From Brevibacillus sp. DP1.3A (GTDB lineage Bacteria > Bacillota > Bacilli > Brevibacillales > Brevibacillaceae), in contig NZ_CP085876.1 of assembly GCF_013284245.2 (NCBI RefSeq), positions 3,517,001 through 3,581,000 of the forward strand: DNA of 64,000 nt, written 5' to 3'. The notes under the pieces were generated by a model, which was given only the letters and a program-made list of their open reading frames with translations, had not been told where the DNA came from and did not search any database. Below are positions 9,309-24,790 of the stretch, piece after piece. The first letter of the stretch is position 1, and every line of letters begins with the position of its first letter. Position numbers and translations under genes: made by a program.

Positions 9309-9357
9309 AAAAACAGCTCACTTCATTGGCGATAGATGCCATTGAGTGAGCTGTTTT
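9309..9357 (-). terminator. Terminator of the TetR-dapF operon
   Basis: The 13-bp arms AAAACAGCTCACT (9310-9322) and AGTGAGCTGTTTT (9345-9357) pair perfectly, with an inner CATTGGC/GCCATTG stem. The minus-strand side ends in a U-rich tail. It closes the long operon that ends with dapF. Confidence 0.85.
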
Positions 9358-9393: not shown

Positions 9394-9458
9394 ACGAAAG
9401 TGGATTTGATGGATTACTTCAAGTATCTTCCCGTGATCGACTGTTCCACATGGATGAT
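9394..9458 (-). repeat. 65-bp duplicate of a uvrA-paralog 3' end
   Basis: These bases match 22518-22582 at 62 of 65 positions. In the second copy the sequence is the last codons of a UvrA paralog and 20 bases past its stop. Here the same frame reads IIHVEQSITGRYLK then stop, directly behind the dapF stop codon. It is a fossil of a UvrA-like gene, or a small transferred segment, caught between dapF and its terminator. Confidence 0.85.
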
Positions 9459-9472
9459 ATTGTGTGGCGTTC

Positions 9473-10315
9473 TCATGTCCATGCATCGGGCAACAAATGT
9501 CCTTCTGCTACCAGCTTCGAGTTGCCTTCCAAGTAAACGGATTCGGCAGCATAATCTGTGAGATGGTAAGAAATTTTAAGGGGTCCCCCTCGAGTGAGCA
9601 GGTTCACAGAGGTGTCTACATGTCCTAAAATACCGGCAATGATTGCTGCAGCAGTCGATCCGGAACCGCACGCGTAGGTCTCTGCCTCTACTCCGCGCTC
9701 ATAGGTTCTGATGCTAAGCGTTTGCCTATCAATCAGTTCCACAAAATTTACATTCGTACCATTGGGAAACTGCTGCTGATCATTTCTGACCATTCGTCCC
9801 CATTCTCTGAGCTGGTCGTCCGCTATCGCGAAAACATTTTCGACAAACCAGACCGTGTGGGGAACTCCGACAACACCGTAATGGTAGACGCCGCTTGGTC
9901 CGTCCCACTCATATGGTTGATTCAGCTTCAGCGCTTGCAATTGAACGTCGGGGAACTTGACATTCACGCCGTTCTGATTCAGCTCTGCCTGATAGATGCC
10001 GGCCATCGTTTCGAAACTCATCTTCGCCTTGGCTGCTCCGATGTGGTAAGCAAAGCGCGACATGCACCTTGCACCGTTGCCACACATTTCTCCTTCACTG
10101 CCATCTGCGTTAAAATACCTCATCTTAAAATCGGCGATGTTGGAGTTCTCCAGCAGCATGAACCCATCCGCACCGATTGAAGTGCCCCGCCTGCATACAT
10201 TTTGGACAAAGGCTGAAAGCGCAACCTCGTTCAACATGCCATCGCGATTGTCTACTACAATAAAGTCGTTGCCACAGCCATTCATTTTTTTAAACGGGAT
10301 CCCAAGATCAAACAT
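9473..10315 (-). CDS. dapF: Diaminopimelate epimerase
   Basis: DapF interconverts LL- and meso-diaminopimelate for lysine and peptidoglycan synthesis, by a two-cysteine, cofactor-free mechanism. Both catalytic cysteines are visible: Cys78 in EGEMCGNGARC and Cys216 in YACGSGSTAA. The N-terminal FKKMNGCGNDFIVVDNRDG is diagnostic. The length (280 residues) fits the family. The start at 10315 follows AAGGAGGAG. Unusually, it is the last gene of a peptide-import operon and not part of a lysine operon, which suggests a role in using imported wall peptides, or a second copy of the enzyme. A uvrA remnant begins within 15 bases of its stop. Confidence 0.95.
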   Translation of the reverse strand: MFDLGIPFKKMNGCGNDFIVVDNRDGMLNEVALSAFVQNVCRRGTSIGADGFMLLENSNIADFKMRYFNADGSEGEMCGNGARCMSRFAYHIGAAKAKMSFETMAGIYQAELNQNGVNVKFPDVQLQALKLNQPYEWDGPSGVYHYGVVGVPHTVWFVENVFAIADDQLREWGRMVRNDQQQFPNGTNVNFVELIDRQTLSIRTYERGVEAETYACGSGSTAAAIIAGILGHVDTSVNLLTRGGPLKISYHLTDYAAESVYLEGNSKLVAEGHLLPDAWT

Positions 10316-10382
10316 TTCACTCCTCCTTTTATCCGATGTACCGTGCAAAAAAGTTCCAGGATTATGGAGCAGTCACCTTGCT

Positions 10383-11366
10383 TTAAGAAGGATCGATTGC
10401 GGGAAATGATTGATAGAGATGACAAGCGACTGATTGCCCTTCTATTTCACACAGCTTTGGCAACTCGACTTTGCATATTTCCATTCTAGAACGGCAGCGC
10501 GGATGGAATTTACATCCCTCCGGCGGATTAGACGGAGACGGGAGATCGCCCGTCAACACAATTTGCTCGCGCGTATCATCAGGATCGGTAATGGGTTTGG
10601 CTGAAAGTAATGCTTGTGTATAGGGATGCAGCGGTCGTTCAAACAGCTTCTCTTTCTCAGCATACTCGATGATTTCACCTAAATACATGACCGCCACTTT
10701 ATCGGCAATGTGCTCAACTACGCTCAAATCATGCGAAATGAAGACATAGGTCAAGGAAAATTGTTCTTGCAAATCCTGCAGCAAATTAAGGATTTGCGAT
10801 TGAATCGACACATCTAGGGCGGAGACAGGCTCATCTGCGATAATCAGCTTTGGCCGAAGAATCAGGGCACGGGCGATGCCAATTCGTTGTCTTTGCCCTC
10901 CGGAAAATTCGTGAGGATAGCGAGATAGATGCTGCTTGCTCATGCCGACAATCTCAATCGTTTCTTCCAGTAGCGCTTGTCGCTGCTCTCGGGGAATACA
11001 GTGCGAAATCAGCGGCTCTGTCAAGATGTGCCCGATCGTTAGTTTCGGGTTCAATGTTTCAAATGGATTTTGAAAAACCATTTGCATATTTCGCCTTACT
11101 GCACGCATTTCATTTTTGTTCATTTTTCCTATTTCGTTACCTTGAAAACGAATTTCGCCTTGGACTGGATCCAGCAAACGCAGAATACATTTTCCCAATG
11201 TAGACTTTCCGCAGCCTGACTCCCCGACAATCCCCAGCGTTTCTCCTTCATAGACGCTCACATCAATCCCGTTTAGAGCATGAACATAATGCGGTTGTTG
11301 AAACCACCCTTTTTTCATGCGAAACAGCTTGCGTAGCCCTTTCACTTCCAGGATTGGAGTCGTCAT
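10383..11366 (-). CDS. Peptide ABC importer ATPase (OppF/DppF type)
   Basis: This 327-residue ATPase energises peptide uptake with its partner encoded just upstream. Walker [10 protein letters not shown] begins at residue 48; the signature [13 protein letters not shown] and Walker [13 protein letters not shown] follow; the C-terminal oligopeptide-transporter extension includes [10 protein letters not shown] and a GCKFHPRC Cys motif that in this family can bind a [4Fe-4S] cluster. Its ATG overlaps the stop of the OppD-type gene by four bases. It belongs to the TetR-led operon; dapF follows 67 bases downstream. Confidence 0.92.
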
Positions 11367-12358
11367 CCACCTACCACCGAGCTTTCCTGTTCATAATCCT
11401 TGTCTTGGGTAAATAACCAGCATCGACAAGAAGAATGCTGATCCACTGGATGGAGCACAGGGTTTCGCTCCCAACATATCGCCATCACTCTATCGCATCG
11501 CGGGGCAAAACGGCATCCATTGGGTTTGTTTTCCGGTGTCGGCACACTGCCTTCTATGCTGTGAAGCCTCTTTGCGCGTTTCCTTGGTGTCGATTGGAGC
11601 AAACCTACGGTGTAAGGGTGCTTCGGATTGCGCAGCAACGAGCGTACGTCCGCTGTTTCAATCGCTTGTCCCGCATACATCACCATGACGCGGTCGCATA
11701 CTTCAGCGACCACCCCTAAATCATGCGTAATCATGATCACTGACATGCCGATATCCCTTCTGATTTTTTTGATCAGATTCAAGATTTGCGCTTGAATTGT
11801 CACATCCAATGCGGTCGTCGGTTCATCAGCGATCAGTAATGACGGATTGCATGCGATCGCCATGGCAATCATCACCCGCTGCCTCATTCCTCCTGACAAA
11901 CGATGCGGGTAATCCCTGTAAATCTCTTCCGCTCGGGAGATGCCCACCAAGGTAAGCAAATCCAGTACCCGTTGCTTTACCGCCGCTTTGCTTTCACCCT
12001 CATGCTCGTGCAGTACCTCACTGATTTGTCGGCCGATCTTCAACACCGGATTTAACGAATGCATCGGTTCCTGAAAAATCATCGCCATTTCCTTGCCTCT
12101 GAGACTGCGCATCTCGGCTTCACTCATCGCAAGCACTTCCTTCCCGTTGAATCGAATGCTTCCAGTCAAAGTGGCCGTATTGTCCAACAGTCGCATGAGC
12201 GAGAGCGAAGTGACGCTCTTGCCGCACCCCGACTCTCCGACAATTCCCAGCGTCTCCCCTTTTTTCACATGTAAATCAAGCTGATCAACAACCGTAATCG
12301 TACCCGACTCTTTCGTGAACCGGGTTGTCAGCCCTGTCACTTCCAATACATTGTCCAT
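11363..12358 (-). CDS. Peptide ABC importer ATPase (OppD/DppD type)
   Basis: A 331-residue ATPase, the first of the two nucleotide-binding subunits of the importer. It has Walker [13 protein letters not shown], the signature [14 protein letters not shown] (MRQR is typical of OppD/DppD), Walker [13 protein letters not shown], and the C-terminal GCRFAPRCD motif. Downstream it overlaps the OppF-type gene; upstream, the permease gene ends 36 bases away. Co-translation with the second ATPase is implied by the overlap. Confidence 0.92.
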
Positions 12359-12394
12359 AAATGGAGTCCCCTCTCCAATCCTCTTATTGCCCTT

Positions 12395-13279
12395 TTACTT
12401 TTGCGTACGAGGATCAAAAATATCACGCAAGGCATCTCCCAGTCGGTTTACTGCCAACACGACAATGGTGATGGCCAATCCCGGGTATGTCGCAAGCCAC
12501 CAGGCATCGGACAAATAATCTTTTCCTTCGTTCAACATGGTCCCCCATTCGGGAGTCGGCGGCTGCGCGCCCAAGCCGATAAAGCCCAACGCAGCCGTAT
12601 CAAGAATCGCTCCCCCCACGAACAGTGTCATGTAAACGAACAATACATTCGTAATATTGGGGAGAACCTGGAAAAGAATGATCCACCAACTCGGCGTCCC
12701 GATCGATCTGCTGGCTTCCACATATCCAGAAGACATGATCACGAGCGTCGCTGCCCTGATCAGACGAGCAAAGCTGGGAATCGAAGAAATACCGATTGCG
12801 ATCATCGCATTGGTTTGACTCGGTCCAAGCGCCGCGACAATGGCCAAGGCCAAAATGATCCCCGGCAAGGCGAGCAAAATATCCATAATCCGCATGAGCA
12901 GGTGATCAATAAATCCTCCCACATACGCACTGATGACACCAATCATCGTTCCTGCCGATACTGTGATGCCGACCGCCATGACAGCAACCACAAGCGTAAC
13001 GCGCGTTCCGTATAAAATACGGGAAAACAAATCGCGGCCGATCGCATCCGTTCCGAGAACATGCTTGGCAGACGGGCCTTGCAAAAAGGCTTCGTAATTA
13101 CTTTCAGTAGGGTCATAAGGAGCGATCCAAGGCCCGACGATTCCGATCGCAGAAATGAGTAAAAGCACCACCAAGCTTAGTTTTGCTGCTCGTTGTTTCT
13201 TGATTTTTCCCCAAAAGGCAAGCTTGGGAAAAATCGGGGACTTGGCTTGCGGCGCGACGGTTTTGCTCACCTCATTCAA
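12395..13279 (-). CDS. Peptide ABC importer permease (DppC type)
   Basis: About 294 residues with a cytoplasmic N-terminus, then six membrane segments. The inner-membrane coupling loop EASRSIGTPSWWIILFQVLPN matches the EAA motif of binding-protein-dependent permeases, and the N-terminal DPTE..HVLGTDAIGRDLFSRILYG block is typical of DppC/OppC. I place the start at the TTG at 13279, eight bases after AAAGGAGGGG and immediately after the stop of the upstream permease; a longer frame to 13324 would overlap that gene with no site. Confidence 0.88.
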   Translation of the reverse strand: MNEVSKTVAPQAKSPIFPKLAFWGKIKKQRAAKLSLVVLLLISAIGIVGPWIAPYDPTESNYEAFLQGPSAKHVLGTDAIGRDLFSRILYGTRVTLVVAVMAVGITVSAGTMIGVISAYVGGFIDHLLMRIMDILLALPGIILALAIVAALGPSQTNAMIAIGISSIPSFARLIRAATLVIMSSGYVEASRSIGTPSWWIILFQVLPNITNVLFVYMTLFVGGAILDTAALGFIGLGAQPPTPEWGTMLNEGKDYLSDAWWLATYPGLAITIVVLAVNRLGDALRDIFDPRTQK

Positions 13280-13280
13280 G

Positions 13281-14219
13281 TTACCGCCCCTCCTTTTCCG
13301 TAATGAGGTCGACACGCGGATCAATCAAACCATAGAGGAGGTCGACCATCATATTTACCAAGACATAGACAAAGCCCATAAGCAGCACAATGCCCTGAAT
13401 CATCGGAAAATCACGGGCTGAAATCGCACGGATAGCCAATGTGCCGATTCCAGGCCAGTTGAACACTTGTTCGATTATCACCGCCCCGCCCAGCAGAGTC
13501 GCGATTTGCAAGCCTACCACCGTAACAACAGGAATCATGACATTGCACAAGGCGTGTCGGAATAGGATGATCGACTCTCTCAATCCCTTGGCCCGTGCCG
13601 TTCGAATGTAATCATGGGAAAGCACTTCGACCATACCGGAACGCGTCAGGCGACTGATCATCGCGGAAGACAAAATGCCCAAGGTACAAGCAGGCAAAAC
13701 AAGATCCTTCCATCCCGTACCGCCCGCGATTGGAAACCAGCCTAATTGAACGGAAAAAAACATGATTACGATTAACCCCAGCCAGAAGCTCGGCAGCGAT
13801 AATCCGATCGAAGCTACCGCCATCAGCATAAAGTCCACGAGCGTATTTTTGTATTTCGCAGCGATAATTCCCATCGCTAAGCCAATCGCGACCGCGATGC
13901 CAATCCCAGCGAAGGCTAGCTTGGCCGTTACCGGAAACCGTTCCATAATTTCCACGATGACAGGTCTTTCTGTTTGTAAGGAAGTCCCGAAATCCCCTTG
14001 GATGACTTTTTCCATGTAGGTCAGGTACTGATGAGGAAGGGGCTGATTTAGCCCCATTTGTTCACGTAACTGTTCCACTTGTGCTTTTGTAGCCTTTTCC
14101 CCTAACATGATCCGTACCGGATCTCCAGGAATAAAATGAACGAGCGCAAACGAAAAGATGGAAATGCCGAGGAGGACAATCACTCCTGATAGCATCCGAT
14201 TTAACAAATACTGTTTCAT
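13281..14219 (-). CDS. Peptide ABC importer permease (DppB type)
   Basis: This 312-residue permease has six predicted membrane segments. The N-terminal region FSFALVHFIPGDPVRIMLG and the EAA-type loop DYIRTARAKGLRESIILFRHAL are characteristic of DppB/OppB. It pairs with the DppC-type permease whose TTG start directly follows its stop. The upstream neighbour is the serine hydrolase, 46 bases away, so the transporter genes are embedded in the middle of the catabolic operon. Confidence 0.92.
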   Translation of the reverse strand: MKQYLLNRMLSGVIVLLGISIFSFALVHFIPGDPVRIMLGEKATKAQVEQLREQMGLNQPLPHQYLTYMEKVIQGDFGTSLQTERPVIVEIMERFPVTAKLAFAGIGIAVAIGLAMGIIAAKYKNTLVDFMLMAVASIGLSLPSFWLGLIVIMFFSVQLGWFPIAGGTGWKDLVLPACTLGILSSAMISRLTRSGMVEVLSHDYIRTARAKGLRESIILFRHALCNVMIPVVTVVGLQIATLLGGAVIIEQVFNWPGIGTLAIRAISARDFPMIQGIVLLMGFVYVLVNMMVDLLYGLIDPRVDLITEKEGR

Positions 14220-14265
14220 GATTCGTTCACTCCTCTCTTCCAGAATGCGTATTCATTGCTTACGG

Positions 14266-15567
14266 CTAAACTCGCTTGGGAATTTGGCGATAGGAGCCCA
14301 TCATGCGAATGACCGTTTGACTTCCGTCTCGTATAAAGCGTACGGTTTGATCCGACCCTTCAACGTTCGTGAGAAAAACGTCTTCGTCGATAGCTTTTAA
14401 AGAGAATGAGTCCGAATGATCGACCGTTACGATCAGCGTGCCTGCATCCACGCTTACCTGTAGATGAATACCTTCCATAGAGCCGTACTCGCCCGCATAT
14501 TCAAGCAGACGATCTGTCGGGAGGTCATATTCCTTATACGTGACATGCGTTGATTTCGCAGGACGATTCTCGATACAGTGAAACGTGCCATGTGCCAATG
14601 CGGCAGCCGGCGAACCGCTGAGATTGGTGAGCGCCACGGCAGCCAATCCGTTCTCGGGGATGATGCTCATGTAGGCTTGGATCCCTTTCTCTCTGCCGCT
14701 ATGGCCCAGCATCAAAGCACCGTAGAAATTGGGTGTAATCGCTACACCATACCCGTAATATTGGTTATGTTCGCATCGGAAATAAGGGGTGGTCATCTGC
14801 TGCACACTTTCCGTGCGAAGAATTCGTTCCTTGCCAATCAAACCTTTCGTTCGAAACAGCTCGGTGTATCTCATCATGTCGGTGAGCGTTGATTTTAATC
14901 CGCCGGATGATTGAAACGGCGGTGTCTCAAATAGCGGTGTCCTATCCTCGTACCCGTGCAACTCCACCAAAGAAAAGCAACTATGCTGCATTCCCGCTGG
15001 TTGAAGGATATGCTCCTTCATGTACGTCGAATATGGCTTGCCGCTTGCCCGCTCAACAATTGCTCCCAGTAGCGTATAGCAATCATTGGAATAACTGAAC
15101 TCCGTACCTGGTGCGCCCAATAAAGTAAATTCCAGTTGTGCCAGATAGGTCATCAATTCCTCATAGGTGTTCATTCCATGCTTGAGTGCTTCATCGACGC
15201 AAGATAATGGCGGCAAACCGGAGGAATGGGTTAGAAAGTTGTGAATGGTGATTGCTTCCGTTCCACTTCCCGTTTTCACATGAAACTCTGGCAAAAAGCG
15301 GGAAACAGGATCTGCAACCGTCAGTTTTCCGGCTTCCTGTAGCTGCATGATCGCAATAGCGGTGAACGATTTCGTAATCGAAGCGATTCCGAATATCGTA
15401 TCAACTGTCGCTACCTGACATTGCTCGGCATCACGATAGCCGAAGCCTTTGGCATAAACGAGCTGTCCGTTTTTGGCCACTCCTATTGCAGCTCCAGGCA
15501 CCTTGCTTTCCATCATTGTTTCTCGGACAAACTCCTCATAACTCACGATCCATTCCTGATTGTTCAT
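14266..15567 (-). CDS. Cytoplasmic serine hydrolase, beta-lactamase/DD-peptidase fold
   Basis: This 433-residue protein has the penicillin-binding-protein fold: Ser63-x-x-Lys66 in ASITKSF, Tyr159-Ser-Asn161 in SYSND, and HSG in place of the KTG triad (GHSGREKG). There is no signal peptide, which is unlike wall-acting DD-peptidases and suggests that it acts on imported material. Relatives include D-aminopeptidases, esterases and AmpH-type peptidases. It lies between the substrate-binding protein and the permeases of the operon. It is clearly homologous to the protein at 38536-39984, which also sits next to a peptide-binding protein. Substrate assignment is inference. Confidence 0.87.
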   Translation of the reverse strand: MNNQEWIVSYEEFVRETMMESKVPGAAIGVAKNGQLVYAKGFGYRDAEQCQVATVDTIFGIASITKSFTAIAIMQLQEAGKLTVADPVSRFLPEFHVKTGSGTEAITIHNFLTHSSGLPPLSCVDEALKHGMNTYEELMTYLAQLEFTLLGAPGTEFSYSNDCYTLLGAIVERASGKPYSTYMKEHILQPAGMQHSCFSLVELHGYEDRTPLFETPPFQSSGGLKSTLTDMMRYTELFRTKGLIGKERILRTESVQQMTTPYFRCEHNQYYGYGVAITPNFYGALMLGHSGREKGIQAYMSIIPENGLAAVALTNLSGSPAAALAHGTFHCIENRPAKSTHVTYKEYDLPTDRLLEYAGEYGSMEGIHLQVSVDAGTLIVTVDHSDSFSLKAIDEDVFLTNVEGSDQTVRFIRDGSQTVIRMMGSYRQIPKRV

Positions 15568-15598
15568 GACCTGTTCTCCTTGTTTTTTGTTTCCACGC

Positions 15599-17242
15599 TT
15601 ACTTAACCCACACGTCCTGATACAATTTCAGTCCGGATGGATCAAGCATCAGACCCTGAACACGGTTATTTACCACGACAAATCGTTTTTCCGTGTAAAT
15701 GGGAATCCAAAAAGCCTCCTCCACAGAGCGCTTCTGAAGATCTTCATAGATTTTCGCTCTATCGTCGCTCTTCATCGTCACCTGTCCCTTTTCCAGCAAG
15801 GAATCGATCGTTTTGTCATGGATGGCTGAACGATTCATCCCACCGATCTGAGTTGAATGCATGAACGGAAACAAGATATCAGGGTCATCAGCGACGTATC
15901 CATCCAGCGCCAAGTCAAATGTGCCGGCAGCAGTTAACTGGTCAACTGCGCTACCTTCCAGAGTAATGATTTTCACGTCTACCCCAATCGCTTTGAACAT
16001 TCCTTGCATCAACTGGGCAGGTTGAGACCATACTTCCATACTCAACATTTCGAGATGAAGCGGTTTTCCTGCTTTCTCCCTTATCCCTTGTGCATTCAGT
16101 TTCCATCCGGCTTCTTCCAGGAGCTTCACCGCTTCCTCGGGGTTGTATTTGTATGCATATTGGGCAATGGATTGATCGTATCCGAACAAATTTGCTGGCA
16201 GCGGACCATCTGCAACAATTCCTTCGCCTTGCAGATGCGACTGCACGATAGCATCTTTCTTTACTGCCATTTGTAACGCTTTGCGTACGCTTTTATCTTG
16301 TAAAATCTCGCTGTTCAAGTTCAGCTCGACAAACAGTCCCAAGCCGCGCTTTGTCTGCTCAAGTACTGTAAAACGATTGTTGTTCTTGAATTTCTTCGCG
16401 TCTTTCGCAGGCAGATCAGCGATGTCGATGGTTCCACTTTCCAAAGCAGCGACAGCCGTTTGCGGATTTCGAATCAATTTCAGAACTAATTTGTCTGGCC
16501 TCGGTGGTCCTTGATTTTTAAAGAAGGGCGTTGCCCAGCGATACGCATCATTTAGAATCAGCGTGATAGAGTCTCCTGATTTCCAGCTCTCCATCTTCCA
16601 TGGACCGACACCGACCGGATTCCTTCCGTATTGATCCCCAAACTTTTGCACCGCGTCCACCGAGAGCGGCTGCATCCAGCTCGCGGAAGTGAAATAGGTG
16701 AGAAGCGTGGCAGACGGTTCATTCAACTCCAAAATAAGGGTCTGATCATCTGGTGTTTTGATCGATTTGATGATGCCAAGAACCATCCCTACGCCTTTGG
16801 GAGCGATTTCCGGAGACATGGCCCGCTCAAACGTTCGCTTGTACGCCTGTGCAGTAAGCAGTGTCCCATCATGAAAGGTAACGCCTTGGCGAATGCGAAA
16901 TGTCCATGTCTTCCCATCTTCCGAAATGGAGTACGATTCGGCCAGATGAGGCTTGACCTCATTTGTTTGGGGGTCTCTGTAAAGCAGAGCCCCCCCTAGA
17001 TTGAGTGCGACCGCCTCCGTGCTTAACGCTGTCGATTTGTGGACATCCAGTGTATCTGGTTCACTGCCGATCGCAACAGTGATCGTTCCGCCCTTTTTCT
17101 CGGATATATTGGCATCTCTTTTTCCTTCATCAGTATCTGGTTTCGTGGCTAGCGTACCGCAGCCGGCCACACCTGCCAGCAGTACGAAACAAGAAAGGAC
17201 AATGCTCACAAACGTGGCGGTTTCCCGCTTTCTTATCCCCAT
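15599..17242 (-). CDS. Peptide-binding lipoprotein (SBP family 5)
   Basis: This 547-residue extracellular receptor delivers substrate to the permeases downstream. A lipoprotein signal ends in the lipobox GVAGC, giving a lipid-anchored Cys. The mature part has the family 5 hallmarks: GGTITVAIGSEPDTLDVH, SEDGKTWTFRIRQGVTFHDGT, NPVGVGPWKMESW, and the C-terminal WIPIYTEKRFVV region. The ATG at 17242 is preferred to the GTG at 17254, which overlaps the likely site GGGAGA. It is a paralog of the binding protein at 40012-41631. Such receptors bind peptides, but some take nickel, opines or sugars. Confidence 0.92.
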   Translation of the reverse strand: MGIRKRETATFVSIVLSCFVLLAGVAGCGTLATKPDTDEGKRDANISEKKGGTITVAIGSEPDTLDVHKSTALSTEAVALNLGGALLYRDPQTNEVKPHLAESYSISEDGKTWTFRIRQGVTFHDGTLLTAQAYKRTFERAMSPEIAPKGVGMVLGIIKSIKTPDDQTLILELNEPSATLLTYFTSASWMQPLSVDAVQKFGDQYGRNPVGVGPWKMESWKSGDSITLILNDAYRWATPFFKNQGPPRPDKLVLKLIRNPQTAVAALESGTIDIADLPAKDAKKFKNNNRFTVLEQTKRGLGLFVELNLNSEILQDKSVRKALQMAVKKDAIVQSHLQGEGIVADGPLPANLFGYDQSIAQYAYKYNPEEAVKLLEEAGWKLNAQGIREKAGKPLHLEMLSMEVWSQPAQLMQGMFKAIGVDVKIITLEGSAVDQLTAAGTFDLALDGYVADDPDILFPFMHSTQIGGMNRSAIHDKTIDSLLEKGQVTMKSDDRAKIYEDLQKRSVEEAFWIPIYTEKRFVVVNNRVQGLMLDPSGLKLYQDVWVK

Positions 17243-17284
17243 GAATGACACCACTCTCCCATGTTTGGAACATATCCTTGCCTC

Positions 17285-18364
17285 CTACGATCTGAGCCAT
17301 TCAACCGTTTTTTGATCCAGCTTTTTGACGAGAGCCGTCAGTAATTTCACCGTATTTTCCACATCATCATGATGGAGAATCGAAGCGTGGCTGTGAATGT
17401 AACGCGCTGGGATTGCGATGACGATGGATGGAGCCCCTTTGCCAACCATATGAGCAGCTCCTGCGTCCGTACCCGCACCTGCAATAGCAGCATATTGATA
17501 AGGGATGCCTTCCTCTTCAGCCGTATCAAATAACAGATCCCGCAATTTCCGATTGGGCACGAGCGAGCCATCGAATAGACCAATCGTAGGCCCGCCACCG
17601 CACTTGATATCAGGCAAATTAGGAGAGTCGGCGCTTCCTGGCGTGTCAAACGTTATCCCCGTCTCCAATGCAATGAATATATCTGGCTGCACCATATACG
17701 TGCTCGTGAATGCGCCGCGGCATCCCACTTCTTCTTGTGCAGTAGCGCCGCTAAATACGATGTTGGGGTGATCCGTTTCTTGCAACTGTTTCATTACTTC
17801 AATGGCTGTCAGGCAACCGCCGCGATTATCGAGCGCTTTTGCCATATACATCTTGTCATTCGCCATCACCGTGAAAGGGCAGATCGGCACAATCGGATCA
17901 CCTGGGCGAATTCCCAGCTCCTTCGCTTGTTCTGCACTGGATGCTCCGATATCAATGAACATCCGCTCGATTTCAACCACTTTCTTTCGTTCTTCCGAAG
18001 ACAGCAGATGCGGCGGTTTTGACCCGATTACGCCGACAATATCCCCTTTGCTTGTTTTAATGTTCACGCGCTGTGCCAACATCACCTGCGACCACCAGCC
18101 ACCAAGCGGCTGGAAGGCGATGAATCCATCCTTCATGACACGCGTTACCATGAACCCCACTTCATCCATATGGCCCATCATCATGATTTTGGGTCCATTG
18201 GCCAGGCCTGTTTTTCGCCCGATTATGCTTCCCAGATTATCTGTGAACACTTCTTCTGTAAGCGGTTCCAAATACGTATGCATTAATTCTCGCACTTCCT
18301 GTTCTTGTCCGGGAACTCCGGCAGCCTCTGTCAGCTCTTTCAGTACCTTTACCCAACTATTCAT
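17285..18364 (-). CDS. M42-family metalloaminopeptidase
   Basis: A 359-residue cytoplasmic aminopeptidase/endoglucanase-like M42 peptidase. Metal ligands and catalytic residues are visible: His65 and Asp67 in GHMDEVGFM, Asp179 in KALDNRGGC, Glu211-Glu212 in ATAQEEVGCRGA, and a late His in YIHSHAS. Such enzymes form large hollow complexes that trim N-terminal residues from short peptides. The start at 18364 follows AAGGAAG; a longer frame to 18460 lacks a site. In this operon it most likely trims peptides after uptake. Confidence 0.92.
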   Translation of the reverse strand: MNSWVKVLKELTEAAGVPGQEQEVRELMHTYLEPLTEEVFTDNLGSIIGRKTGLANGPKIMMMGHMDEVGFMVTRVMKDGFIAFQPLGGWWSQVMLAQRVNIKTSKGDIVGVIGSKPPHLLSSEERKKVVEIERMFIDIGASSAEQAKELGIRPGDPIVPICPFTVMANDKMYMAKALDNRGGCLTAIEVMKQLQETDHPNIVFSGATAQEEVGCRGAFTSTYMVQPDIFIALETGITFDTPGSADSPNLPDIKCGGGPTIGLFDGSLVPNRKLRDLLFDTAEEEGIPYQYAAIAGAGTDAGAAHMVGKGAPSIVIAIPARYIHSHASILHHDDVENTVKLLTALVKKLDQKTVEWLRS

Positions 18365-18389
18365 CCCTATCTTCCTTTCTATTTGCATG

Positions 18390-19961
18390 TTATCTCCAGC
18401 TATCATCCATGCGATCATAGGAACCGATGCGAAGATCTGCTTTTTCGTTCGCCAGTACATGCTTGGCTATACGCTCAGATGGGGTACGAGGCAATTCACT
18501 GCGGTATTCCCAATATCGTGGAACCTTGTAGTAAGCAAGATGCTCGGTGCAATAAGAGATCAATTCGTGAGGAGGCACCGTTTGGCCCGCTTTCACTACC
18601 ACGTATGCCTTGATTTCTTCCCCGCGTATTTCGTCTTTCACTGGAAGGCAGGCAGCATATTGCACGGCCGGATGCATTTTCATGACTTCCTCAACCTCAG
18701 CAGCCGAAATATTTTCCCCGCTCCGGCGAATCATCTCCTTTTTTCTGCCGACATAATAGATGTATCCGTCTTCGTCCATTCGCACCAAATCTCCGGTGTG
18801 GAACCAGCCGCCCTGAAAGGCAGCGCAAGTCGCATCAGGATCTTTATAGTAGCCATCCATCATCCCCAAGCCCCGTAGGAGGAGCTCGCCAACCTCGCCC
18901 CTCGAAACGGGGTGGTTGTGAATATCAACTATGCGGACGGTCCGGTCTTTATCCGGTTTTCCGATGCAGCCTGTTCCGAGCAATCGGTCATGATCGTGTG
19001 GTTTTACCGAAATATCTCCACCTGTCTCTGTCATGCCAAAAACCTCATACCATGGCGCGCCCCATCGCTCTTCCAATTCGCGGTGCAGATGCGGGGGAAT
19101 GGCCGAGCAAAGGATGGTGCGAACGTTATTTTCCCTGTCCACTGGCGAGCGTGGTGCTTTGACCATTAGCGTAGGCATGATCCCCAGGCAGTAGAAAAAG
19201 GTAACGCCATATTGCCGTACTTTCTGCCAAAAAGTAGAGGGATGAAATCGATCGAGAACCACAAGCTTTGCCCCCACAGCGATCGCACCCAGCAAATTCC
19301 ATTGCGGGTCCATATAGTAAAAGGGCTGCGCCGTTAACAGTACATCTGAATTGGTCAAATTGGGATGCTGCTCGACCATCTTTTTTGCTATGGTGATCCA
19401 ATATTCATGTGAAAGCATACACCCCTTGGGTAAGCCTGTCGTACCAGATGTATATTGGATGTTGACTAAAGTTTCAGGAAAAACGGTAAGCGCTGTTGGA
19501 GTCGTGGGCGCGGTTTCACACATCGTTCTGAAATCGACAGCGTTGGGATCGTCTGATTGGTCTACTGAGAGGATTGTTTTGAGGGTTTGTAAGGAAGGTC
19601 TGATCTTCTGTAGCAGGGATATAAATTCCTGTGAAGTTATGATAATGATTGCTTCGGAGTGGTGGAGGATATACTGTGCATCGTACTCTTTGTAATTTAC
19701 ATTTATCGGCACGATAGTCGCGCCTAGTTTTGCCAACGCCAGCCAGGTAAGCGGGAATTCCGGCTGGTTCCTCAGCATGACGGCTACCCGATCCCCATAG
19801 CCTACGCCCAGCACTTGGAGCATGTTGGCGATCTGGTTGGAACGGTCTTCTATCTCCTCAAATGACAGTTGTTCATTCCATTCATCAAAGACAAGCCCGA
19901 TTTTTTCTCCCCATCGTTTGGCCGCCCGTGCCGTCAAAGACTTGATTTCTTGCATGTCCAA
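18390..19961 (-). CDS. Acyl-CoA ligase (AMP-binding, CaiC-like)
   Basis: This 523-residue ANL-superfamily enzyme makes an acyl-CoA from a carboxylic acid, ATP and CoA. It has the P-loop YTSGTTGLPKG (170-180), the GMTETGG motif near 310, the GWFHTGDL adenylate motif near 395, and a C-terminal lysine in RIAKHVL. The lid segment RRSGENISAAEVEEVM resembles the crotonobetaine/carnitine-CoA ligase group. The start is TTG at 19961, ten bases after AAGGAGGG; an ATG two codons later is also possible. It sits between enoyl-CoA hydratase and M42 peptidase genes. The acid is unknown; it may come from an acylated peptide. Confidence 0.88.
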   Translation of the reverse strand: MDMQEIKSLTARAAKRWGEKIGLVFDEWNEQLSFEEIEDRSNQIANMLQVLGVGYGDRVAVMLRNQPEFPLTWLALAKLGATIVPINVNYKEYDAQYILHHSEAIIIITSQEFISLLQKIRPSLQTLKTILSVDQSDDPNAVDFRTMCETAPTTPTALTVFPETLVNIQYTSGTTGLPKGCMLSHEYWITIAKKMVEQHPNLTNSDVLLTAQPFYYMDPQWNLLGAIAVGAKLVVLDRFHPSTFWQKVRQYGVTFFYCLGIMPTLMVKAPRSPVDRENNVRTILCSAIPPHLHRELEERWGAPWYEVFGMTETGGDISVKPHDHDRLLGTGCIGKPDKDRTVRIVDIHNHPVSRGEVGELLLRGLGMMDGYYKDPDATCAAFQGGWFHTGDLVRMDEDGYIYYVGRKKEMIRRSGENISAAEVEEVMKMHPAVQYAACLPVKDEIRGEEIKAYVVVKAGQTVPPHELISYCTEHLAYYKVPRYWEYRSELPRTPSERIAKHVLANEKADLRIGSYDRMDDSWR

Positions 19962-19981
19962 AAGGTTTCAGCCCTCCTTCT

Positions 19982-20752
19982 CTATACCGATCTTTTTTTT
20001 CGGAACCCTTCAGCCGCCTGCTTGGATTCGATCGTTTGCACGGTTGCCAGCGCATGCTCGATCTCCAATTCAAAAGCTGCCTCCAGATCGCATTGTGCCC
20101 CGCGATTTAGCGCAAATTTGGCTTTTGCAAGCGCTACTTGCGGGAGCTCAGCTAACCGTTTCGCCCACTTGTCAGCTTCTTCAGCTAACACTTTATGATC
20201 CACTACCTTGTTGATGAGTCCTAGATGCAGTGCTTGCGATGCACCGAACCTTTCGCCCGAAAACAGCAATTCTTTCGCCCGGACCAGTCCGATTGCGATG
20301 GGAAGGATATGCGAGATTCCTCCGGTAACACTAAGTCCCACACTCACTTCCGGAAAGCCAAATTCGGCATCTTGAGCGGCGATGATCAAATCGCATCCGA
20401 GCGCAAACTCACAGCCTGCTCCTAATGCATAACCATGGACCGCAGCGATCACCGGGAAAGGAACACGCTGGATCTTTCGTGTTATATCTTGAATTTTCTG
20501 TAAATTAAGACGAATCTCAGCCTCACTTGCAGGCTTTTCTTCATGACGCAAATCATGTCCTGCACAAAAAGCATTCCCGCGACCAGCCAGTATTGCTGCC
20601 CTTACTCCTTCCCGTTCCAACTTATCGAGCGATCCATACAGCTCCTCTACCAATTGTGGAATCACCGCATTTAACCGCTCGGGGCGATTCAGGTGAATCC
20701 AGCCTATCTCTTGATGGATCTCACACTCTACCACCGCCTTACGTGTTGTCAT
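19982..20752 (-). CDS. Enoyl-CoA hydratase/isomerase family protein
   Basis: A 256-residue crotonase-fold enzyme. The oxyanion-hole segments AFCAGHDLRH and HGYALGAGCEFALGCDLIIA are clear, with a conserved Glu in CEF and another in FPEVSVGLS. Crotonases hydrate, isomerise or cleave acyl-CoA thioesters. It begins inside the 3' end of the amidohydrolase-like gene (14-base overlap, site GGAGG) and is followed 20 bases later by the acyl-CoA ligase, so the two probably act in sequence: ligase first, hydratase next. The exact substrate cannot be deduced. Confidence 0.9.
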   Translation of the reverse strand: MTTRKAVVECEIHQEIGWIHLNRPERLNAVIPQLVEELYGSLDKLEREGVRAAILAGRGNAFCAGHDLRHEEKPASEAEIRLNLQKIQDITRKIQRVPFPVIAAVHGYALGAGCEFALGCDLIIAAQDAEFGFPEVSVGLSVTGGISHILPIAIGLVRAKELLFSGERFGASQALHLGLINKVVDHKVLAEEADKWAKRLAELPQVALAKAKFALNRGAQCDLEAAFELEIEHALATVQTIESKQAAEGFRKKRSV

Positions 20753-21623
20753 TCTTTTTTACCTCCGCCTTTATTTTGGAAAACAATGCTTTTGCATTCG
20801 AACCGAGCACCTTCTCTAGCACCTCGGGCTTTATGCTTAATTCCTTCCATTCTGCAATCGCGCGTTTCAGAGGAAATACAGGCCAGTCTGTTGCAAAGAG
20901 GATTTGATCTTGCAAGAGGTTGTTTGCTAACCTGTACATCATCTCCCACCCTGCTCCTTGCACCCCCAAATACCTTGGAGAAAGCCCGCCCAAATCCATC
21001 AGAACATTGGGGTGCTTGCGCGCTACAGCAACCATTTCTGGCACCCAGGGCCACCCCCCATGACACGCGATCAATGTTAATTCCGGAAAATCACAGGCGA
21101 CTTGATCCAGCAACAGCGGGTGTTCATTCCGGATGGGATGAATCATCGAATAATTAATTCCCGTATGAATAGCAACTGCCAAGCCTAACTCGGCAGCCTT
21201 TGCGTATACGGGATATAATTTGCGATCATCGATCGGCATCTCAAAAAATGCAGGCTGGATGTTTACTCCCAGAAAACCCAGCTCTTTGATGCGGCTCACT
21301 TGTTGGACAGCGCGCATCGGTCTGAAATGCTCCATTGAAATCGTACCGAACCCTGAGAAGAGCTCGGTGTGAGCGGATATGATTTTTGCCAATGCTTCAT
21401 TCAGCGCATCCCCATCCTCGCCGAATTCGTATTCTGCATGCATAATGGCGTGGTCTACTCCTGATTCTTTCATTTCTTGAATCAAATCGTCGAGCGTTTT
21501 CGCGATAGTCGATCTTACTTGTAACACCGCATCATATTGAGCGACGTACTCATTTCGCATTTCACCTATGCGTGCCTCACGGAACTGCTGTGGCAAGCGG
21601 ACACGAGCATCAAGAATGTTCAT
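20739..21623 (-). CDS. Amidohydrolase-2-like protein with altered N-terminal metal motif
   Basis: A 294-residue TIM-barrel protein of the amidohydrolase-2 group (ACMS decarboxylase and relatives). Seen motifs are AIHTGINYS, LIACHGGWPWVPEM and ILFATDWPVFP, which supply the usual His, His and Asp ligands. The opening metal motif, normally DxHxH, reads LDARVRLP: both histidines are arginines. Either metal binding has changed or the enzyme is of a divergent subtype. It overlaps the TetR gene upstream and the enoyl-CoA hydratase downstream, both by 14 bases, so all three are tightly coupled. Confidence 0.82.
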   Translation of the reverse strand: MNILDARVRLPQQFREARIGEMRNEYVAQYDAVLQVRSTIAKTLDDLIQEMKESGVDHAIMHAEYEFGEDGDALNEALAKIISAHTELFSGFGTISMEHFRPMRAVQQVSRIKELGFLGVNIQPAFFEMPIDDRKLYPVYAKAAELGLAVAIHTGINYSMIHPIRNEHPLLLDQVACDFPELTLIACHGGWPWVPEMVAVARKHPNVLMDLGGLSPRYLGVQGAGWEMMYRLANNLLQDQILFATDWPVFPLKRAIAEWKELSIKPEVLEKVLGSNAKALFSKIKAEVKKNDNT

Positions 21624-22272
21624 GCGCAGCAGCCCCCAGCCATGGTTTCATAAAAAAACGAGCGGGTTCAGGCAGATCCAAATCGGAGACAGTCAGTTGC
21701 TGTCCGTTCCGCTTTGCCTGAACGAGTGCAAGCGCCATATCGGAAAAATTCAAGCTGATTTCTTCCAATGAATTTGGACCATCAGGCGAGTACCAATGGG
21801 CGACACCCGTGCACATTTGAAGCAAAGCCAGGACGGCAAGCTTGGTATTTTCTATCGTAAATACGCCCTGCTCTAATCCGCCCGTTAAAATACGCTGCCA
21901 GAGCAGCTCATATTCACTGCGCAACCTGGCAATTTCTACGCGCGTATCTCCTGTCAGCGCACGGAACTCGGTATCTACTACTAGCGCTGTTAGCTTGTCA
22001 ATGGCATGGCTGGTAACATGAAGCTGTACAAACGCTGCCAATTGTTGTTCGGGTGCTTCAAGCTCAGCGAGCACTTCCTTTGCATTTCCAAGAAGGGTCT
22101 GTAACCCTTCTTGCATGATGGCAACGAGCAGATCCTCTTTTGTCTTCATGTAATGATAGAGGGTGGAGGAGGTTACCTCTGCTTCTAGAGCGATATCACG
22201 TATGCTGGTTGCTTCAAAACCTTTTCTTGCGAATAGCCGTAATGCTGCTTGAAATATTTTTTCTTTCGTCAA
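21610..22272 (-). CDS. TetR-family repressor heading the operon
   Basis: This 220-residue regulator has an N-terminal TetR helix-turn-helix: FQAALRLFARKGFEATSIRDIALEAEVTSSTLYHYMKTKEDLL, with the recognition helix near residues 33-42, and a helical ligand-binding domain. The TTG start lies nine bases after AAAGGAG. It is the first gene of a twelve-gene operon and overlaps the next gene, so it is probably autoregulated by a ligand derived from the pathway, perhaps an acyl-CoA as in FadR-like TetR proteins. A palindrome about 65 bases upstream is a possible operator. Confidence 0.88.
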   Translation of the reverse strand: MTKEKIFQAALRLFARKGFEATSIRDIALEAEVTSSTLYHYMKTKEDLLVAIMQEGLQTLLGNAKEVLAELEAPEQQLAAFVQLHVTSHAIDKLTALVVDTEFRALTGDTRVEIARLRSEYELLWQRILTGGLEQGVFTIENTKLAVLALLQMCTGVAHWYSPDGPNSLEEISLNFSDMALALVQAKRNGQQLTVSDLDLPEPARFFMKPWLGAAAHEHS

Positions 22273-22336: not shown

Positions 22337-22352
22337 TCGATCGATCGATCGA
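22337..22352. promoter_or_regulatory. Candidate TetR operator (CGAT palindrome)
   Basis: TCGATCGATCGATCGA is a perfect 16-bp palindrome made of four tandem CGAT units. It lies about 65 bases upstream of the TetR start, where an autoregulatory operator would be expected. The repeat could also be an incidental simple repeat. Confidence 0.4.
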
Positions 22353-22430
22353 TTGGTTGTTTGTAATCACCACTTTACTAATCACTCAATTCAATGTCAA
22401 GATTATTTTTTATTTTCTGACATTTGCTTT

Positions 22431-22485: not shown

Positions 22486-22537
22486 ATAGCAGCTTTTACG
22501 TCGGAATCCCATACATTACGAAAGTGGATTTGATGCA

Positions 22538-24790
22538 TTACTTCAAGTATCTTCCCGTGATCGATTGTTCCGCATGGATGATCTGCGGAGGTATGCCCTC
22601 GAAGACCACCTGACCGCCGTTACTGCCTCCGTCCGGTCCCATATCGATAATCCAATCCGCTTGGCTGATCACATCGAGGTTGTGCTCGATGACGATTACC
22701 GTATTGCCTGCATCTACGAGGCGATTCATGATCTCCAGAAGGTGACCGATATCAGACATATGTAAGCCAGTCGTCAGCTCGTCCATCACGTAAATGCTGC
22801 CTTTCTTGTGCAGTTCGCTTGCCAGCTTGATGCGCTGGCATTCCCCGCCAGAGAGTGTGCTGAGTGGTTGGCCGAGTGTAATATAGTTCAGCCCTACATC
22901 ACTCATCGCCTGGAGCTTGCGCATTACCTCTTTTAGCTCAAAAAATTCCAATGCCTGCTCCACCGTCATCTCTAACACTTCTGCAATTGACTTGCCATTC
23001 AGCTTGTACGCGAGCACCTCTTCCTTAAACCGTCTACCTCCGCAGACTTCGCACGGCAGCTTTACGCTTTCAAGGAATGCAAGGTCTGTATACACAACAC
23101 CTAGACCTTGACAGTTCTCACAAGCCCCCTTGGAGTTGAAGCTGAACAAGCCTTGATTGACCTTGTTCGCGGAAGCAAACGCCTTGCGCACATCATCCAT
23201 GATCCCTGTGTAAGTCGCTGGATTCGAGCGCGTGGACACGCCTACCGCCGATTGGTCGATGACGATCGCATCCGGATGGTTGCTGAGGAATACATCGTTA
23301 ATCAGCGTACTCTTACCTGAGCCTGCGACACCCGTAACTACTGTCAGCACTCCGGTTGGAATATCTACACTCACGTTCCGCAGATTGTGCAGTGTGGCAT
23401 CCTCGATGGACAGCTTGCCGGACGGCTTCCTGGAATCTTGCTTCAGTTGGATCGGCCGCTTCATATCGGTGCCTGTCAGTGTCCCTGATTCAAGCAGGCC
23501 TTGGAAGTTTCCTTCATACACGATGGTACCGCCGTGGCTGCCGGCGTGAGGCCCGACGTCGACGATATGATCTGCCACTTTGATCACATCGGGATCATGC
23601 TCGACGACAATGACGGTATTGCCCTTGTCGCGCAGCTTCTGAAGCAATTCATTTAACCGATGTACATCACGGGGGTGTAAACCAACGCTGGGCTCATCAA
23701 AAATGTAAGTAACATCCACCAGACTGCCACTCAGATGCTTCACCATCTTGACACGCTGCGACTCGCCGCCGGACAAGGTATCCGTCTCACGGTCCAGCGT
23801 CAAGTAGTCTAGACCGATATCCACTAGATGCTGCAACCGCTCCGTCAGCGACTTGACCATCGGTGCGGCGACCGAATCGTCAATCTCCTGAATGACCCGG
23901 ATGAGCCGACCGACCTCCATGGAGGACATCTCTGCAATGTTGAGGCCATTGATTTTGCAGTTGAGTGCAGCCTTGCTAAGTCTTGCGCCGTGGCAGCTTG
24001 GACAGGGACCTTCAGTGATGAACGGCGCAACAGCTTTTTGTGTACGCTCAGACTTCGTCTTTACATCCTGCTTGATGTATTTGTTGGTGAACTTCTCAAG
24101 AACGCCTTCTACTGTAATGTTCACGGCTTTCCCGGCGAATTGCATCTCCACTTTCCTCGCCTTAGCGTACAACAGCTGTTCAAGCTCCTCATCCGAATAA
24201 TCGCTCAGCTTCTTGTCAGGATCGAAGCCCGTCTGCACGAGCATATTCCATTCCATACCGTCTACCTTATAGTCCGGCAGCTTGATTGCCCCTTCATTCA
24301 ACGACTTTGACATGTCAACCGCTTTGCTGATGTCGACGCCTAATTTGCGACCGATACCGTTACATTCGGGACACATGCCTTGTGGATCGTTAAAAGAGAA
24401 CATATGCGCTTGTCCAACATAAGGCTGGCCCACTCGGGAGAAGAGCAGGCGGAGAATGGGAGAAATATCGGTAATCGTGCCCATCGTGGAATGGGAACCG
24501 CCCCCCAGTCGCTTCTGGTCTACGATAACCGCCATGCTGAGGTTCTCGATCGCGTCTGTATCCGGCTGCGGATAGCGGGGCAGGAAATTGCGCACGAACA
24601 TGCTGAAGTTCTCATTCAGCAATCGCGTGGATTCTGCAGCGATCGTATCGAAGACGATCGATGACTTACCAGATCCAGATACACCGGTGAAGATCGTAAT
24701 CTTCCGCTTAGGAATGCGCAAGGATACGTTCTTGAGATTGTTTTCCCTCGCACCGGAGATTACGATATACTCCTGATTAGATTCGCTCAT
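22538..24790 (-). CDS. Short-class UvrA paralog (ABC excinuclease subunit-like)
   Basis: This 750-residue soluble twin-ABC protein has the UvrA layout: Walker A GVSGSGKSS at 36, signature LSGGESQRVKMV, a second Walker A GVAGSGKSTL, signature LSGGECQRIKLA, and zinc modules CPECNGIG, CPSCHGARL, CENCQGLG and CEVCGGRRF. It is about 190 residues shorter than housekeeping UvrA, as in the class II paralogs linked to resistance to DNA-binding drugs. The start at 24790 follows GGAAGG by nine bases. Its last 23 bases and 3' flank are duplicated at 9394-9458. It stands alone, upstream of the TetR operon. Confidence 0.9.
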   Translation of the reverse strand: MSESNQEYIVISGARENNLKNVSLRIPKRKITIFTGVSGSGKSSIVFDTIAAESTRLLNENFSMFVRNFLPRYPQPDTDAIENLSMAVIVDQKRLGGGSHSTMGTITDISPILRLLFSRVGQPYVGQAHMFSFNDPQGMCPECNGIGRKLGVDISKAVDMSKSLNEGAIKLPDYKVDGMEWNMLVQTGFDPDKKLSDYSDEELEQLLYAKARKVEMQFAGKAVNITVEGVLEKFTNKYIKQDVKTKSERTQKAVAPFITEGPCPSCHGARLSKAALNCKINGLNIAEMSSMEVGRLIRVIQEIDDSVAAPMVKSLTERLQHLVDIGLDYLTLDRETDTLSGGESQRVKMVKHLSGSLVDVTYIFDEPSVGLHPRDVHRLNELLQKLRDKGNTVIVVEHDPDVIKVADHIVDVGPHAGSHGGTIVYEGNFQGLLESGTLTGTDMKRPIQLKQDSRKPSGKLSIEDATLHNLRNVSVDIPTGVLTVVTGVAGSGKSTLINDVFLSNHPDAIVIDQSAVGVSTRSNPATYTGIMDDVRKAFASANKVNQGLFSFNSKGACENCQGLGVVYTDLAFLESVKLPCEVCGGRRFKEEVLAYKLNGKSIAEVLEMTVEQALEFFELKEVMRKLQAMSDVGLNYITLGQPLSTLSGGECQRIKLASELHKKGSIYVMDELTTGLHMSDIGHLLEIMNRLVDAGNTVIVIEHNLDVISQADWIIDMGPDGGSNGGQVVFEGIPPQIIHAEQSITGRYLK

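Follow-up and report, generated by a model that had tools for sequence, protein, structure and literature searches.

The window analysed here, a 64,000-nucleotide stretch of Brevibacillus sp. DP1.3A (NZ_CP085876.1, positions 3,517,001 to 3,581,000), contains a putative TetR-controlled operon of twelve open reading frames (ORFs), all co-directional on the minus strand and running from 22272 to 9473. An earlier note, made from the letters alone, had described twelve tightly packed genes, and these were recovered as real. The gene junctions range from −44 bases (between the two permease genes, where the upstream TTG start is taken) through −14 to +46 bases; starting dapF2 at its first ATG instead of TTG gives the 67-base gap of the earlier note. 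The first gene encodes a TetR-family regulator (21610..22272) with a TetR_C_24 domain and a FadR-like match below the cut-off. It is followed by an amidohydrolase-like TIM-barrel protein of the Amidohydro_2 family (20739..21623) with RxR where HxH is expected, a crotonase/enoyl-CoA hydratase family protein (19982..20752) in which both usual glutamate positions are kept, and an AMP-forming acyl-coenzyme A (CoA) ligase (18390..19961) with the ligase motifs and no assigned substrate. Next come an M42 aminopeptidase (17285..18370) carrying the M42 motifs, glutamyl aminopeptidase-like at a score below the cut-off, a family-5 solute-binding protein (15599..17254) with an AGC lipobox-like motif at residues 28-30, recognised by eye, and an S12 serine hydrolase (14266..15567). 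Two Dpp/Opp-type permeases (13281..14219 and 12395..13324) were assigned by domain scan, and two Dpp/Opp-type ATPases, DppD-like (11363..12358) and DppF-like (10383..11366), were labelled from their sequences without such a scan. The last gene encodes a DapF-family epimerase, here called DapF2 (9473..10348), a paralogue of another DapF in the genome (C1:2203992). The operon consists of three modules with separate histories. The first, the CoA core, is formed by the TetR regulator, the amidohydrolase-like protein, the crotonase and the ligase; the second comprises the importer with the M42 and S12 hydrolases; and the third is DapF2.

All twelve genes are found in identical order in 8/26 genomes of the genus, counting the source genome, which is more than chance would give. 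The carriers, among them B. porteri, B. formosus and B. fortis, all share the upstream uvrA-like neighbour, and a DHFR-like (dihydrofolate reductase-like) gene lies on the far side of the block in seven of the eight, the exception being G013 (genomes are numbered with G and loci with L). The amidohydrolase-like gene was detected in 10/39 genomes of the order (E ≤ 1e-30). In samples of 398 genomes each, it was found in 8 from the class (E ≤ 1e-40), exclusively the operon carriers, and in 2 from the phylum. The DapF2 type occurs in 15 of the 398 class genomes (E ≤ 1e-50), all of the same family, so that the relatives expected in Paenibacillus did not appear in this sample. Two partial versions were found, both in genomes with high contamination values (7 and 9). 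The G033 cluster has TetR, amidohydrolase-like, enoyl-CoA hydratase, frameshift-split ligase and M42 genes, with no importer gene within the 20 kb read. The G032 (B. fluminis) cluster has TetR, amidohydrolase-like and ligase genes, two S12 hydrolases, a GPH-type carrier, an aminopeptidase-like gene (our label; no NCBIfam match) and an M28/M20-type gene with weak matches, and a partial amidase lies upstream of it.

Upstream of tetR lies a promoter-like site, TTGACA-N17-TAAAGT (22372..22400, minus strand), a consensus match only. Such sites are not enriched in the sequence (12 found, against 17.6 ± 3.7 in shuffles), and the TTGACA together with most of the promoter-like stretch is conserved in the eight operon genomes. 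Between this site and tetR is a candidate TetR operator, the perfect 16-base palindrome TCGATCGATCGATCGA (22337..22352). With at most one mismatch, it is found at a single place in this genome and at a single place in G006, and an operator-like palindrome is present in all eight operon genomes. The single operator-like site agrees with the earlier view of the block as one unit. A single terminator at the end had also been claimed. A strong hairpin with a T run does lie there (9309..9357, minus strand), but inside an insertion absent from the three other operon genomes aligned (G019, G002 and G006), and it is therefore not a conserved operon end. No terminator is conspicuous inside the block, with 18 terminator-like sites found against 13.5 ± 3.4 in shuffles. 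A 65-base direct repeat, 95% identical, was observed at 9394-9458 and 22518-22582; it is the 3' end of the uvrA-like gene, copied just past dapF2 with the hairpin in this strain only among the eight carriers. The repeat was considered as a mark of recent insertion of the whole block, an idea that was rejected because the block holds the same place in seven other species, where the repeat sequence occurs only at the uvrA end.

The amidohydrolase family was used to scan a wider collection, and the best 80 of 96 confirmed loci were kept; ORF calls in the high-GC loci are mechanical. The 13 closest loci (L027-L039, of which L027-L030 and L037 are from genomes also included in the genus and order counts) encode proteins 46-98% identical to the amidohydrolase-like protein and come from Brevibacillus, Pseudogracilibacillus, Actinomycetota, Chloroflexota and Dormibacterota. 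Twelve of the 13 have an AMP-forming CoA ligase gene no more than 1.8 kb away (that of L032 on the other strand, that of L030 frameshifted), and the thirteenth has an NDP-forming (nucleoside diphosphate-forming) acyl-CoA synthetase-like gene within the same distance. This 13/13 association supports the activation of an acid to its CoA ester that the earlier note had envisaged. Of the other 67 loci, many on short contigs, 6 have a ligase gene of one of three types at up to 1.8 kb and 10 have one at up to 3 kb. A tree built from 45 selected rows puts the ligase-linked group on one side of a branch (100/99) and likewise recovers a permease-linked group of 15, with one unlabelled row inside (99/97). 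A further relative, L133 (47%), from a different family of the phylum, stands directly behind a PaaK-type ligase gene. Eight of the 13 close relatives have a TetR homologue within the cluster or next to it. The core recurs whole or in part across phyla with exchanged transporters and hydrolases: Dpp-type ATP-binding cassette (ABC) genes in L034, in L038 (there on the other strand) and in the Brevibacillus carriers, a Dpp permease 9 kb distant in L036, APC amino-acid permeases at L033, L035 and L039, and the GPH-type carrier in B. fluminis. Amide-, peptide- or amino-acid-type transporters or hydrolases thus recur in related clusters, as two S12 and peptidase-like genes, an amidase or amino-acid permeases. 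Among the 67 distant relatives, a Dpp-type permease gene lies within 125 bases in 13. Distant relatives that also lack counterparts of H153 and H188 were seen directly before Dpp-type importer genes at L054, L059, L080, L085, L087-L091, L094, L097, L102 and L104, and perhaps these are not enzymes of the usual kind.

The operator-like motif also travels with the core. In G033 (L018/L030), two overlapping matches to TCGATCGATCGATCGA, with up to one mismatch allowed, mark one place, before tetR, and shorter or repeated versions precede tetR in L033, L035 and L037. In the actinobacterial locus L035, which has a TetR of 47% identity, the motif precedes the TetR-like part, and the full 16 bases recur before the permease gene that opens the ligase operon; its 12-base core has three matches against 0.01 expected, a number reached in 0/100 shuffles. 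Both L033 and L035, with TetR proteins 45-47% identical, have operator-like sites at two promoters each. This recurring palindrome, a putative operator, is the strongest sign that the CoA core is a regulatory unit.

The N-terminal HxH is the metal motif of metal-dependent amidohydrolases and ACMSD-type decarboxylases. It was not found here: the window protein and all 13 close relatives have DxRVR(L/V)P instead, and H153, H188 and D246 are kept in both. A structure model built from 15 sequences gave the TIM barrel of the family (predicted local distance difference test, pLDDT, 88.4). The nearest fold is 3irs (TM-score 0.79/0.83), followed by LigJ hydratase and the dihydroxybenzoate and carboxyvanillate decarboxylases. 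The best match in both sequence and fold is BB4693 (PDB 3irs/3k4w), an uncharacterised TIM-barrel protein of Bordetella that is 30% identical to the window protein. Both have the N-terminal RxR, but in the alignment BB4693 is without counterparts of H153 and D246. These data suggest an altered or metal-free amidohydrolase-like site with a role as lyase, hydratase or decarboxylase.

The S12 protein carries all three expected motifs (SITK at 63, YSN at 159 and HSG at 289, for SxxK, YxN and HxG) and, having no signal peptide by eye, is read as cytoplasmic. Its best solved relative is Pab87 (E 5e-59), a cubic-octameric CubicO S12 peptidase of Pyrococcus abyssi that is reported to prefer D-residues (PMC2651629), and the hydrolase here may by analogy share that preference. 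The same report places the Pab87 gene near a dipeptide ABC transporter and proposes processing of environmental D-peptides (PMC2651629). An S12 hydrolase near a dipeptide-type ABC transporter is thus common to both neighbourhoods, but the part of the report available names no CoA genes or DapF beside Pab87, unlike the operon studied here. The importer, the M42 aminopeptidase and the Pab87-like hydrolase, together with the amide or peptide genes or amino-acid permeases of related clusters, support the amide/peptide theme of the earlier note; no observation points specifically to a lipopeptide or a signal form, as had also been suggested.

DapF2 scores 239.3 bits against NCBIfam TIGR00652 (cut-off 114.65) and has both catalytic cysteine motifs, MCGNGARC and YACGSGS. 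The other DapF of the genome matches it in two pieces, at 39% across the first third. The idea that DapF2 is the housekeeping enzyme was rejected, as this other DapF is present and the two kinds form separate clades. In a tree of 35 DapF sequences, the eight operon proteins form one clade (100/100) nested in a DapF2 group with 21 members, which separates from the 14 canonical sequences (100/100); inner placements are unsure owing to several long branches. In H. influenzae DapF, the residues binding the far end of diaminopimelate (DAP) are N64, N157, N190, E208 and R209 (PMC8225329). DapF2 keeps N64, N190, E208 and R209, and N157 is replaced by Val in 15/15 Brevibacillaceae DapF2 proteins. Loss of N157 was considered as proof of a non-DAP substrate, an argument that was given up since L134 shares the change and falls with the canonical sequences in the tree. 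The change would fit a shifted specificity but proves nothing on it.

In seven Brevibacillaceae genomes, DapF2 lies outside the operon and in all seven directly behind a DctA/GltP-type symporter gene (NCBIfam matches all below cut-off); symporters in the four operon genomes checked are only 31-32% identical. Three of these loci, L013-L015, probably close kin, carry two tandem S12 genes beside a DppA-like M55 gene no more than 10 kb away, and a Dpp-type permease is in the vicinity. The phylum sample gave 19 further matches, of which the best seven loci were read. One of these, L134, is canonical by the tree. The other six, all from Bacillota, have a DAP dehydrogenase gene within about 1.8 kb in 5/6 (257-314 bits, cut-off 180.6), an M55 gene in two (below cut-off) and a Na+/H+-antiporter-type carrier in three; L132, one of the six, aligns over its first two thirds only and may be broken. 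In L131, two DAP-dehydrogenase-like genes (10043-10945 and 13059-13961) were observed beside a single DapF2-clade gene. DapF2 looks catabolic because its clade adjoins a symporter or a DAP dehydrogenase elsewhere, and the epimerisation role proposed earlier gains from these neighbours. The clade thus likely has a role in DAP use, and for DapF2 in this operon such a role is only probable.

Several known systems resemble parts of the operon. The dppB-E/ykfABCD genes of Bacillus subtilis are wall-peptide genes with a Dpp-type importer, intracellular peptidases and an epimerase (PMC2954226). The present operon shares these three elements, but YkfA, YkfB, YkfC and an M55 DppA are all absent from the twelve genes, the epimerase here is of the DapF family, and the CoA ligase, crotonase and amidohydrolase-like protein are extra. 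No relevant open-licence literature was found on 3IRS/3K4W/BB4693, the operator sequence, a Brevibacillus DapF operon, DAP breakdown or the gene set. The Rhodococcus p-hydroxycinnamate genes couL, couM and couO likewise bring together a CoA ligase, a crotonase and an amidohydrolase-family protein.

The block as a whole appears best read as a system that, under regulation, takes up an amide- or peptide-linked acid and breaks it down, and a TetR-repressed catabolic operon of this kind is given a probability of roughly 0.5. What the sequences establish is the unit with its conservation, the conserved operator-like site, the families of the proteins, the separate DapF clade, the absence of HxH and the linkage of amidohydrolase-like protein and ligase. 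In the proposed mechanism, the Dpp-type importer would take up the compound, and the cytoplasmic S12 hydrolase and the M42 aminopeptidase, to judge from Pab87 and M42 relatives, would free the organic acid and amino acids, some D-configured. The ligase would convert the acid into its CoA thioester, the crotonase would hydrate it, and the RxR protein would cleave, decarboxylate or hydrate the CoA ester; the order and the reactions are provisional. Either the CoA ester or the acid may release TetR from the single operator. DapF2 would epimerise DAP or a close amino acid freed from the peptide, as its neighbours elsewhere suggest. Import and cleavage, CoA activation and breakdown of the acid, and amino-acid epimerisation together explain most of the block.

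A number of observations weigh against this reading. Among the best matches considered (at most 25 per protein) for the eight of the twelve proteins covered by the NCBIfam scan, only DapF2 passes a curated cut-off, so these models give no substrate for the others. The only 16-base operator match in G032 is on another contig, outside the operon, which itself has the shorter ATCGATCGAT. In L033 the sites are weaker, at the same two places (three matches against 0.24 expected, 2/100 shuffles having as many), the L037 site is weak alone (3/100 shuffles as many), and L039 has no operator-like site in the 200 bases upstream. The PaaK and NDP-forming ligase types were added to the counts after the loci had been seen. 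The CoA core occurs without an importer or DapF at L018 and L039, DapF2 with a symporter or DAP dehydrogenase occurs without the CoA core, and DAP dehydrogenase is absent from all eight operon genomes (2/26 genus genomes have it, neither an operon carrier). An indivisible twelve-gene pathway is therefore not upheld, as subsets of the genes occur alone. The earlier note had held that subsets in unrelated operons of known function would refute its single system: such subsets were found and weaken the claim, but the operons that hold them have no established function.

The L031/L032 pair adjoins genes resembling piperideine-6-carboxylate dehydrogenase and amine-oxidising enzymes, which points to an amino compound, not a peptide, and again speaks against an amide- or peptide-linked acid. 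On this basis, the importer substrate could be a small amino compound (lysine-, pipecolate- or ectoine-like) that is oxidised to an acid, converted to the CoA ester and broken down, the peptidases being Brevibacillus accessories. The aldehyde dehydrogenases of L031 and L032 come near L-piperidine-6-carboxylate dehydrogenase (702 and 700 bits against a cut-off of 730; the next family reaches 319 and 307), flavin adenine dinucleotide (FAD) amine-type oxidases lie beside the CoA core in both, L031 and L034 have an aminotransferase, L032 has an M24 gene distantly like ectoine hydrolase (121 bits, cut-off 575), and the APC permeases of L033, L035 and L039 count in the same direction. L031 and L032 are close relatives, however, and so count as one case only, the twelve genes include no oxidase, transaminase or aldehyde dehydrogenase, and two separate versions of the cluster contain peptidase or S12 genes (the eight operon genomes with G033, and G032). 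This possibility is accordingly held to be doubtful, if a serious one.

The separate module histories, with DapF2 having joined from a symporter locus on present evidence, would also suit a salvage of murein peptides merely co-regulated with a fatty- or aromatic-acid pathway, without a common substrate. Against this, the twelve genes keep one order in 8/8 carriers under a single operator-like site, and in G032 and L034 the core is again accompanied by amide or peptide hydrolases, so that mere co-regulation seems unlikely. A metallophore system like that of staphylopine, with an importer and a DapF-like racemase of the CntK type, is very improbable. The binding protein does resemble NikA (198 bits) and CntA (141 bits), and CntK/HisR are DapF-like histidine racemases (PMC11602996), a kinship to DapF that counts for such a system; the NikA and CntA scores are far under their cut-offs of 393 and 800. 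The opine dehydrogenase and nicotianamine-synthase-like genes of a staphylopine-type (Cnt) system are absent among the twelve (the remaining genome was not searched), and such a system would leave the peptidase and CoA genes without a role.

Returning to the amide- or peptide-linked acid, a more specific form can be put forward only tentatively. The core would then be a transferable, undescribed module with one TetR, a cross-phylum operator and a CoA ligase, crotonase and RxR enzyme, the last acting on a CoA ester as a lyase, hydratase or decarboxylase of a new kind, combined with exchangeable importers and amide hydrolases, to which Brevibacillus may have added a catabolic DAP epimerase for acylated or D-residue wall peptides. 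An orphan TIM-barrel family without HxH is tied to CoA chemistry, a defined repressor and an operator-like site, so its reaction becomes testable, and the TetR effector should identify the acid. DapF2 marks a clade probably serving breakdown rather than lysine or wall synthesis, and two dapF genes in a genome therefore need not be two housekeeping copies.

Two minor observations concern DapF2 beyond the operon. Plasmid records gave 90 with a DapF2 match, all below 60% identity. In L011 (5096-7747), ORF translations with a short repeated peptide pattern suggest a clustered regularly interspaced short palindromic repeats (CRISPR) array that lies a few kilobases away from the paired symporter and DapF2 genes of G022.

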